64,000 nt of DNA, taken from assembly GCF_016862515.1 (NCBI RefSeq), contig NZ_BONC01000001.1:1-64000 (forward strand), written 5' to 3'. Below are positions 24,223 through 26,999 of the stretch, in pieces. This DNA comes from Asanoa iriomotensis (GTDB lineage: Bacteria > Actinomycetota > Actinomycetes > Mycobacteriales > Micromonosporaceae). Each line of letters starts with the position of its first letter. Positions within the stretch are counted from its first letter, which is position 1. Under the pieces are notes generated by a model, which had not been told where the DNA came from, ran no database searches, and saw only the letters and a program-made list of their open reading frames with translations. Made by a program: the position numbers and the translations under genes.

Positions 24223-25017
24223 GTGACGACGCCCACCAACCTGCGCGGCGGCCGCCGCGTCCACACCGGACGCCGCCTCGGCCAGGTGATCGGCCGCAAA
24301 CCCACCGGCATCACCGCCGGCCAGTGGAACACGGCCAACACCGTCGTCCTCGACTACCTGGTCACCGACGCCGACACCGACCGCACCGAGTTCGCGCTGC
24401 TGTTCACCGACGCCAACGCCAACGGCCGCGTCGAACGTATGACCACCGCCGTCTGCGACGCCGTCGGCCTGCCGGTGCTGCGGATCACCTCGGCCACGCT
24501 GACCGCCGCCGACCACGGCACCGGCATCCTCAACTACATCCTCGACGCCCGCGCCTTCGGCGGCGACTACCGCGACATCGTCGGGCGCCTCCCCGACGGC
24601 CGCACCGGCCACGTCAACGACCTGTCGTCCGTCGCCCGCGCCGCCGCCGTCGACGCGTACGCCGCCCGCCAGCTCTTCGACCCCATCATCCGCGGCATCC
24701 GCGTCCGCTGGACCGGCGGCCCCGCCGAAGGCTGGGCCTGGCTGCAACTACGCGAAGGCGGCTACGTCTTCGAACGCGTCCTGCTCGCCGAACACCGCAC
24801 CACCTGCGGCGTCCCCGCCGACCGCCTCGCCGAGGACCTCGCCGGCGCCGCCATCGGCCAAACCCTCAAACTGCGCCACAGCGCCGAGCCGGACCTCGTC
24901 GACCACGCACACATCGAGGCCCGGCTCCGGGAGCTGTCCACCCGCCGCGACGAGCTGGTGGACGGCTTCCCCTACGAACACCTGCTCGCCGACGCCGATC
25001 AGCCCGCCGCCCGGTAG
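24223..25017 (+). CDS. Uncharacterised protein with a DUF2726-like nuclease-fold segment
   Basis: A 264-residue protein. Residues 30-110 (VVLDYLVTDADTDRTEFALLFTDANANGR... then AVCDAVGLPVLRITS) resemble the DUF2726 segment of PD-(D/E)XK-like proteins, where a strand with Asp/Glu precedes an AGxPxLRI helix-strand. The catalytic Lys of a true nuclease is not obvious, so it may be inactive. The C-terminal half has a WTGGPAEGWAWLQLREGGYVFERVLL beta sheet. Start is the leaderless GTG 24223. It follows the siderophore genes by 9 bp, but nothing ties it to iron chemistry. Its end overlaps the convergent next gene by 19 bp. Confidence 0.62.
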   Translation: MTTPTNLRGGRRVHTGRRLGQVIGRKPTGITAGQWNTANTVVLDYLVTDADTDRTEFALLFTDANANGRVERMTTAVCDAVGLPVLRITSATLTAADHGTGILNYILDARAFGGDYRDIVGRLPDGRTGHVNDLSSVARAAAVDAYAARQLFDPIIRGIRVRWTGGPAEGWAWLQLREGGYVFERVLLAEHRTTCGVPADRLAEDLAGAAIGQTLKLRHSAEPDLVDHAHIEARLRELSTRRDELVDGFPYEHLLADADQPAAR

Positions 25018-26999
25018 GCGCTGCCCATCGGCGTGAGCTGCCCCGACTCCTTGTAGAGACCCGTGTGGCTGTCCGCCGTCGACGGCAACCCGAACCACGA
25101 GTACCGCTCCACGTACGACAACCCCTGCAACATGTCCGTCGCACCGTTGATGAACGCCACCTGCTGCGCGTCCGTCGGATAGTGCGCACCCGACCCGTCG
25201 AACCGGATCAACGCGAACTCCGTCAACCAGATCGGCAGCTTGTACTTCGCGTACACCTGCTGGATGTAGCCCTTGAGGTGCCCGACCGCCGCCGACGAGA
25301 AGTCACCGCCGTACCAGTGCAGGGTGATGAAGTCGACCCGGTAGCCCTTCGACTTGGCACCCTTCATGAACTGGTCGAGCCACTTGCCGGTGTCGGCCGC
25401 ACCGAACGCCACCGACGGGCTGCCCAACCGCATCCCCGTCGCCTGCAGCTTCGGCCACAGCTCCAATGCCTTCGCCGGCGTCATGTTCGCCTGCTCCGCC
25501 ATGTCGGGCTCGTTGAACCCCAGCAGCGTGTCACCCTCCCGCTTCGCCTGCGCGATCGTCGCGTCCGTCGCATTGGCCGTGCCCCAGATCATCGGCACGA
25601 ACTCCACACCGCTGGCCGGCATACGGTCGTTGTTCGCACCCCAGTTGTAGTACCACGAGGCACCGACAGCTTTCAGGCCCGCGTTCACCGCCGGGAAATC
25701 CCAGACCGCGGCACCCTTCTTCGCCGTCTTGCGGGTCGGAGGCAGGGGCGCCACCGGCTTCACCGGTGACTTCGTCGGGGTCGGCTTCGCGGTGGGCGAG
25801 ACCGTCGGCGACGGCACGGGGGTTGCCGTCGCTTCCGGGGATACGCGCGACGGGGCGCTCGATGCCGAAGGAGGCAGAACGGCCGCGGCCGGCACCGCGT
25901 CCCCATTGCGCACGACCCCGAACGTGACAACCGCGGCCGCCGCCACCGTGACCGTCGCAACCGCCGCGGCGACCGGCTTGCTGATCGCCAGGCCCTTCAG
26001 CGCCCAGGAGGCGCCCTTCGCCGCCGTGCTGGCGGCGCCGGCCGCGCTGCCCGCGCTTGTCGTGCCGCCGGCCGCGGTCGCCGCCCCGCCCAGCCCCGGC
26101 ATCGACGCGGTGCTGCCGCCCCACGACGCGCCCGCCGTCGTCGCGTTCCAACCCGTGCCCGTCGCCGCCCCGACCGCACCACCCGCCGCTGCCGCGCCCG
26201 CACCCGTCGACCCGAGCATCCCGGCCACCATGCCGGCGACCGGCGCGACCAGGCCGATGCCCGCCAGCAGCCGCTCCGCCGCCACCAACTGCACCGACGC
26301 CGGCCCGCAGTAGGCGCAGTCGCGCACGTGCCGGGCCAGCCGCTTGCGCCACAACGCGTCCGGACGGCCCGACCAGCCGGCGACCAGCCCACCCAGCTCC
26401 ACACAGCGCGGCCTCGTCGACAACGCCCGCACCACGCTGCGGGCCGTGTCGAGCGTCGCCTTCATGCGCTGCACGCGTACCGCCGCATGCTGGTTCGTCA
26501 AACCCATCGCCTGCGCCAGGTCGTCGCGGGACAGTTCCCCGGACGCCTCGAGCCACCACAGCGAGAGCAGCTCGCGGTCGTCGGGGTCGAGCCAGCGGGT
26601 CGCCTCGGCCACCTCCCGCCGCTGACCGGACAGCTCCAGCCGCAGGATCGTCACGTCGGCGAAGTCCGCACCCGGGTCCGACATGTCGCCCTCACCCGGA
26701 TAGCCCAGGTGGCCGGCCTGGCGCGCGCGGTAGGGGTCCGCCTGGCGGTCGCGTACCTGCCGCACCGCGATCGCGACCAGCCACGCCCGGAACCGGGACG
26801 GGTCGCGCAGGCTCCGCAGCCCCGTGACACAGCGCAGCATCGTCTCCTGCACCACGTCGTCGACGTCCGCGTGCCCGTCGAGCGCCCGCCCGACCACGTT
26901 GTAGACCAGCGGCAGGTATTCGGCGACCAGTTGGTCGACCGCCCGCGGATCACCGTTCCGAGCGGCGAGCACCAACGCCTGCTCGTACCCTTCGCGCAT
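24999..26999 (-). CDS. ECF sigma factor fused to zinc-finger anti-sigma segment, membrane helix and Asl1-like glycoside hydrolase
   Basis: A 666-residue one-protein signalling unit starting at ATG 26999 (SD GGAGAGG). Residues 1-195 are an ECF sigma factor (region 2 DVDDVVQETMLRCVTG; region 4 LDPDDRELLSLWWLE...LAQAMGLTNQHAAVRVQRMK). Around 226, HVRDCAYC is an HxxxCxxC zinc-finger. An Ala/Gly-rich stretch leads to a membrane helix near 338-363 (AAAVATVTVAAAAVVTFGVV), then a Pro/Thr linker to about 425. The extracellular part (425-666) is a clan-A glycoside hydrolase of the Asl1/GH128 type: FNEPD (acid/base Glu 497) and WLTEF (nucleophile Glu 594), with DFITLHWYG. Fused ECF-plus-sensor proteins are known in actinobacteria; a beta-glucan ligand is inference. 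Confidence 0.85.
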   Translation of the reverse strand: MREGYEQALVLAARNGDPRAVDQLVAEYLPLVYNVVGRALDGHADVDDVVQETMLRCVTGLRSLRDPSRFRAWLVAIAVRQVRDRQADPYRARQAGHLGYPGEGDMSDPGADFADVTILRLELSGQRREVAEATRWLDPDDRELLSLWWLEASGELSRDDLAQAMGLTNQHAAVRVQRMKATLDTARSVVRALSTRPRCVELGGLVAGWSGRPDALWRKRLARHVRDCAYCGPASVQLVAAERLLAGIGLVAPVAGMVAGMLGSTGAGAAAAGGAVGAATGTGWNATTAGASWGGSTASMPGLGGAATAAGGTTSAGSAAGAASTAAKGASWALKGLAISKPVAAAVATVTVAAAAVVTFGVVRNGDAVPAAAVLPPSASSAPSRVSPEATATPVPSPTVSPTAKPTPTKSPVKPVAPLPPTRKTAKKGAAVWDFPAVNAGLKAVGASWYYNWGANNDRMPASGVEFVPMIWGTANATDATIAQAKREGDTLLGFNEPDMAEQANMTPAKALELWPKLQATGMRLGSPSVAFGAADTGKWLDQFMKGAKSKGYRVDFITLHWYGGDFSSAAVGHLKGYIQQVYAKYKLPIWLTEFALIRFDGSGAHYPTDAQQVAFINGATDMLQGLSYVERYSWFGLPSTADSHTGLYKESGQLTPMGSAYRAAG

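Follow-up and report, generated by a model that had tools for sequence, protein, structure and literature searches.

In the window, the whole 64,000-nucleotide stretch of Asanoa iriomotensis DNA analysed here, a single open frame of 666 codons occupies positions 24999–26999 of the reverse strand, beginning with an ATG at 26999. The encoded 666 aa protein carries an ECF sigma factor, a zinc anti-sigma domain (ZAS), a membrane helix and an outer glycoside hydrolase domain of family GH128; the nearest orthologues belong to A. siamensis, A. ishikariensis and A. hainanensis. All features of the gene are given below in window positions on the reverse strand. The start codon is preceded by a Shine–Dalgarno-like GGAGAGG (27004–27010). 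A GTG at 27080 was rejected as the start, since the conserved predicted promoter is downstream of it. A preliminary description of this DNA had proposed one protein spanning sigma factor, anti-sigma zinc finger, membrane and hydrolase. Its coordinates and residue numbers are correct, the parts share one frame here and form one protein in all 22 GH128-bearing species, and the domain order, topology and intact active site are supported by domain and structure matches.

The sigma gene is adjoined by genes for an IucA/IucC siderophore synthetase and a PLP-dependent decarboxylase (20628–24213), an order conserved in Asanoa. The window contains a second sigma factor with a C-terminal extension: a YCII/DGPF-type protein precedes an ECF42-like factor that is extended by DUF6596 (29193–30766). 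Five scrambled and inverted fragments of the fusion gene lie about 4 kb upstream of it (31062–31369); they are about 38–90 bp long and 85–92% identical to the gene, are arranged as a unit of about 131 bp in two copies, and look like template-switch or duplication debris.

The N-terminal part of the protein (aa 1–190; 26430–26999) is an ECF sigma factor according to Pfam, NCBIfam and PDB sequence and fold matches. Sigma70_r2 is found at aa 24–85 (Pfam, 3e-13) and the sigma70-ECF model TIGR02937 at aa 20–183 (NCBIfam, 5e-20); a PDB comparison matched this part to sigmaE structures. The Pfam region 4 model has no match in the sigma part, and region 4 was recognised from the fold and helices; regions 2 and 4 are the only sigma-70 regions present, as is characteristic of ECF factors. 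The pLDDT of the model is mostly >87 here outside aa 85–115. The zinc anti-sigma domain (aa 195–235; 26295–26417; pLDDT 90–97) has the motif C199-x24-H224-x3-C228-x2-C231, which does not vary in any row of the family alignments; this is the class I ZAS pattern, Hx3Cx2C with an upstream ligand. No curated anti-sigma profile in Pfam matches the segment, and the ZAS assignment rests on motif and position. By analogy with class I anti-sigma domains, the domain probably inhibits the sigma factor in cis (PMC7406223).

The zinc domain is followed by the hydrophobic segment LVAAERLLAGIGLVAPVAG (aa 238–256; 26232–26288), in which L244 and L250 are invariant. A second membrane helix at this position would put the hydrolase domain in the cytoplasm; it was rejected because the segment is conserved like anti-sigma helix 4 and forms a short broken helix in the models. 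It is proposed to be the sigma-binding helix 4 of the anti-sigma domain, by analogy (PMC7406223). A variable Ala/Gly-rich cytoplasmic linker (aa 257–333; 26001–26231), seen in the alignment and modelled with pLDDT <50, leads to the single transmembrane helix (aa ~342–363; 25911–25976), which is evident from hydropathy in the query and its relatives and is flanked by Lys on its N-terminal side. According to the alignment, a Pro/Thr/Ser-rich outer linker (aa 370–424; 25728–25892) connects the helix to the hydrolase domain.

It is very improbable that the two halves are made or act separately, through an internal start or through early cleavage independent of any signal. A split frame has been reported for one S. 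clavuligerus ECF52 relative, perhaps as a sequencing error (PMC5826349), but all relatives collected here have one open frame, and separately made halves, which the preliminary description had named as evidence against its proposal, were not found among them. Moreover, the hydrolase half lacks a signal peptide other than the internal membrane helix.

The outer domain (aa 425–666 plus the stop codon; 24999–25727) matches AmGH128_I and belongs to GH128 subgroup I. The Pfam domain Glyco_hydro_cc (PF11790) was found at aa 446–662 (4e-55), and the domain superimposes on AmGH128_I (PDB 6uaq) with 55% identity, a TM-score of 0.96 on the target and an rmsd of 1.2. Both hallmarks of GH128, the PF11790 fold and the catalytic Glu pair, are present. 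E497 (25509–25511) corresponds to E102 of AmGH128_I, the general acid/base, and E594 (25218–25220) to E199, the nucleophile; in AmGH128_I, the depositors mutated these residues to A or Q in 6uat, 6uas and 6ufl. Both are invariant in 22/22 fused proteins. The two Glu residues are therefore in place, as had been noted, and the loss of both in orthologues, which would have pointed to a sensor only, was not found. Every catalytic residue tested is invariant in the 22 actinobacterial fusions, and so are the presumed equivalents, judged by motif and position, of the substrate-contact residues described for a GH128 enzyme (PMC10956234): W449, W472, N496, E497, Q503, H561, Y563, E594, W635 and F636. 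Within Asanoa species, the GH128 domain is under purifying selection as strong as that on the sigma domain (dN/dS 0.15–0.18 versus 0.14–0.21).

AmGH128_I is an endo-beta-1,3-glucanase with the same fold and catalytic Glu pair, and at 55% identity the domain of the fusion is presumably one as well. AmGH128_I was crystallised as a glucanase alone, a 263-residue chain with no sigma part, unlike the fusion. An intact active site is, however, no proof of hydrolysis, because the GH10 domain of RsgI6 binds its substrate and yet has very low activity (PMC4711584). The outer domain might accordingly only bind glucan, with catalysis irrelevant or nearly lost and the intact Glu residues serving binding; relatives with CAP- or AbfB-type outer domains show that binding-type domains suffice in the same position. 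This possibility is rather unlikely: in 22 proteins from several families, neither Glu residue varies, nor do the −1/−2 subsite residues or Tyr563, which assists the nucleophile, and the domain falls into catalytic subgroup I, not the oligosaccharide-binding subgroup VII. A further GH128-like sequence was seen on contig C88 of G000 (3672–3767; L083), where 96 bp in a short frame encode a fragment with 72% identity to the GH128 domain, possibly what is left of a second GH128 gene.

When 84,980 species genomes were searched, 80 loci of the same family were found. In 80/80 relatives the sigma and zinc domains share one frame and Hx3Cx2C is present. The outer domain is GH128, CAP, AbfB or an unnamed type. 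GH128 is found in 22 proteins, including that of the window, and the whole fusion is conserved in these actinobacterial proteins; among the other 59 family members, Pfam identifies CAP in 38, widespread in Streptomyces, and AbfB in 6. The sensor types cluster on the sigma tree with a few type changes, although the quick sensor labels used there missed some CAP members. Two unnamed outer domains are without a Pfam match: a beta-rich domain with the motif LFHVASGG in the C-terminal halves of L079, L077, L055, L068, L076, L016 and L235, and a repeat-rich domain with the motif WGCSHNEG in those of L019 and L080.

The upstream regions of the family share the consensus TGTTATCS-N15/16-GTCTCC. In the window it takes the form GTTATCC-N16-GTCTCC (27037–27065), 37 nt before the ATG, as a predicted autoregulatory promoter. 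When the first −10 base is left free (A, C or G), every one of the 22 genes of the GH128 type has the motif upstream, as do 61/81 genes of the family overall, compared with 0/81 for the reversed control pattern. The dyad GTTA-N19-TCTC occurs in 44/64 non-redundant upstream regions versus at most nine in shuffles. This conservation strongly suggests that the sigma gene is under the control of its own product. Autoregulation is usual for ECF sigma factors. No earlier report of the motif was found in the literature searched, which excluded the original ECF classification papers.

Regulon scans were carried out with patterns, not weight matrices. The exact pattern gave about 50 matches in the genomes of 24 relatives versus 6 for the reversed control. 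The 1.23 Mb of sequence from these loci of the family contain 12 non-self sites, of which 11 lie before a gene matching the sensor type; the twelfth (L006) runs off the contig. Among genomes with a GH128 sensor, the motif lies 69–73 nt before a gene for a secreted GH16 enzyme that also carries a ricin-type lectin domain (RicinB) in four Actinoplanes genomes; in Trebonia, one site precedes a thaumatin-family gene adjoining the sigma gene and another a GH64 beta-1,3-glucanase gene elsewhere in the genome. Thaumatin-like proteins act on or bind beta-1,3-glucan. Judged by family assignment, the GH16 and GH64 targets would act on the same polymer, that expected for GH128. When only the GH128 group is counted, with 3 sites out of 24 independent non-self ones, a binomial estimate gives 2e-6 to 2e-4, which is rough and indicative only, with an assumed gene frequency of 0.1–0.5% and an event list compiled by hand. 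Where the sensor is CAP, the motif precedes secreted CAP genes (L025, L048, L050, L069; L118 in the S. natalensis genome), and where it is AbfB, AbfB or GH43 genes (L041, L053, L065, L046); in L059 and L066, the AbfB gene comes after a broken frame. The earlier suggestion of a glycan signal is independently supported, because the motif precedes genes that match the type of sensor, both in the GH128 group and in the CAP and AbfB groups; glucan itself is the probable signal.

The match between sensor and targets also bears on the reading in which wall or membrane stress in the cell's own envelope activates the sigma factor, with the GH domain as no more than a wall anchor. Many ECF sigma factors monitor the envelope, and the wide distribution of CAP-type relatives in Streptomyces would suit such a role; however, the promoter targets follow the sensor type and beta-1,3-glucan is not a known component of the wall of these bacteria. 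Envelope stress is thus an improbable signal. Other non-self matches in GH128-type genomes are unrelated or background, and several non-self matches, at ParB, MFS, kinase, SpoIIE-like and other genes, look like background and were not taken as targets.

Several other occurrences of the motif were recorded. In genomes with LFHVASGG-type sigma factors, it lies before alginate-lyase-like genes (L146, L182, L201) and PATR-repeat genes (L119, L147, L188, L203). In 4/4 sampled genomes of one genus (L212, L213, L215, L216), it precedes a gene for a 183 aa membrane protein; the sigma factor examined in that genus (L211) is of the GH128 type. In Lentzea, whose sigma factor is also of the GH128 type, it is found 43 nt upstream of a gene for a secreted DUF1996 protein (L186:1572–2585, forward strand), a candidate for a glucan-related role.

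All six Asanoa genomes carry the promoter of the sigma gene, and no other site clearly common to them resembles a promoter for this factor. With a relaxed motif, matches in Asanoa were not clearly more frequent than those of the reversed control. An exact match beside a MarR gene in the genome of the window overlaps a TTGACGCGTCAA palindrome and makes an unconvincing promoter for the factor; the site recurs in most of the six genomes, not all. The remaining exact match in this genome is not shared by the Asanoa genomes and was rejected as a target. Three GH16 homologues of the same genome lack the motif, two of them showing a GAGAGCGCTCTC palindrome instead, and were likewise rejected. The fusion gene is the only glucanase gene with the motif in the genome of the window, and a glucanase target is found by exact motif in some GH128-type genomes only; both observations count against the reading preferred below.

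These observations also favour a reading in which the protein is first of all an enzyme, a membrane-anchored glucanase that sets its own amount through the fused sigma factor and is also shed by proteolysis. This would imply a one-gene regulon, and the own promoter as the only site clearly common to the six Asanoa genomes, together with the absence of the motif from the GH16 homologues in the genome of the window, speaks for it. Sigma factors of the same type have, however, external glucanase targets in other genera, and degenerate promoters escape exact-motif scans, so that this reading is considered possible but doubtful. A more general rule, that the outer sensor and the secreted enzymes controlled by the sigma factor are alike in kind or act on the same polymer, has about an even chance of being correct. 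It includes the proposal, at the same level of confidence, that the Asanoa circuit has shrunk to its smallest form, in which one polypeptide would serve as sensor and enzyme, lock and switch, and would also be the main target of its own control.

The architecture of the fusion is known in outline; the conserved promoter and the sensor-matched targets appear to be new. ECF52 and ECF53 proteins unite sigma factor, anti-sigma domain and membrane segment, and glycosyl hydrolase domains are predicted in some of them (PMC10766802, PMC8999054); the family described here shares their fused ZAS, membrane helix, long outer extension and restriction to Actinobacteria. As in the fusion, sigma factor, ZAS, membrane helix, Pro-rich linker and an outer carbohydrate-related domain occur in one protein, and proteolytic activation has been proposed (PMC8999054, PMC5826349). 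The preliminary description rightly took ECF groups with fused C-terminal domains to be known. Its view that intact hydrolase domains in this position are poorly studied is right, but the architecture itself had already been reported, in reviews that present these fusions as predictions without experimental validation (PMC10766802, PMC8999054). For a subgroup I domain with intact catalysis, for sensor–target matching and for the self-only circuit of Asanoa, no earlier account was found in the literature searched. The studied ECF52 protein SCO4117 has a carbohydrate-binding module, whereas the fusion has a catalytically intact GH128-I domain; its predicted motif is CSGYN-17-SRHA, unlike that of the fusion, and its targets are developmental. 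The behaviour of SCO4117 is consistent with proteolytic release, which is unproven (PMC5826349).

A similar logic is found in the SigI/RsgI systems of Clostridium thermocellum, where an outer hydrolase or binding module is linked through the membrane to a sigma factor and the sensor type matches the enzymes controlled, as with RsgI6-GH10/SigI6 and xylanases (PMC4711584). The fusion would work like SigI/RsgI but is not a member: SigI and RsgI are separate sigma and anti-sigma proteins with non-homologous domains and an autoproteolytic domain not seen in the fusion, which has an ECF sigma factor and a ZAS in one protein in place of an RsgI N-terminal anti-sigma domain and a separate SigI. A single polypeptide likewise combines a sigma factor and a membrane anti-sigma factor in IutY of Pseudomonas putida (ECF243), where Prc and RseP bring about the release (PMC8999054); unlike the fusion, IutY responds to a siderophore receptor and has no outer enzyme. 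By analogy with IutY (PMC8999054) and with RsgI, for which steps of intramembrane proteolysis (RIP) are known (PMC12203970), the sigma factor is probably released by intramembrane proteolysis. No site-1 cleavage domain is visible in the protein, which counts against the preferred reading.

On balance, the protein is probably a beta-1,3-glucan-responsive, membrane-held and self-inducing sigma factor contained in one polypeptide. The fused zinc domain would hold the N-terminal ECF sigma factor inactive in cis beside the membrane, while the single helix and stiff Pro/Thr linker would place the GH128-I domain outside the cell. Beta-1,3-glucan is a sugar polymer of fungal cell walls. The outer domain could meet it, and may hydrolyse it in vivo, in fungal or oomycete walls, callose or laminarin. 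Engagement of glucan would then release or unmask the sigma factor, most likely by regulated intramembrane proteolysis, and the freed factor would transcribe from TGTTATCS-N15/16-GTCTCC promoters. Its first target would be its own gene, a positive feedback that would raise the amount of surface glucanase; in the Actinoplanes and Trebonia relatives, it would also reach secreted glucan-active GH16, GH64 and thaumatin-like proteins.

For ECF sigma factors that carry fused surface domains, little has been established about the signals they answer, the promoters they use or the genes they control, and the promoter and sensor-matched targets described here make a glucan-sensing switch directly testable. 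If the family rule is true, the sensor domain alone would predict both ligand and regulon, which could then be read from it across many actinobacteria. The likely relevance of the system lies in how soil actinobacteria detect fungi and regulate their lytic enzymes.
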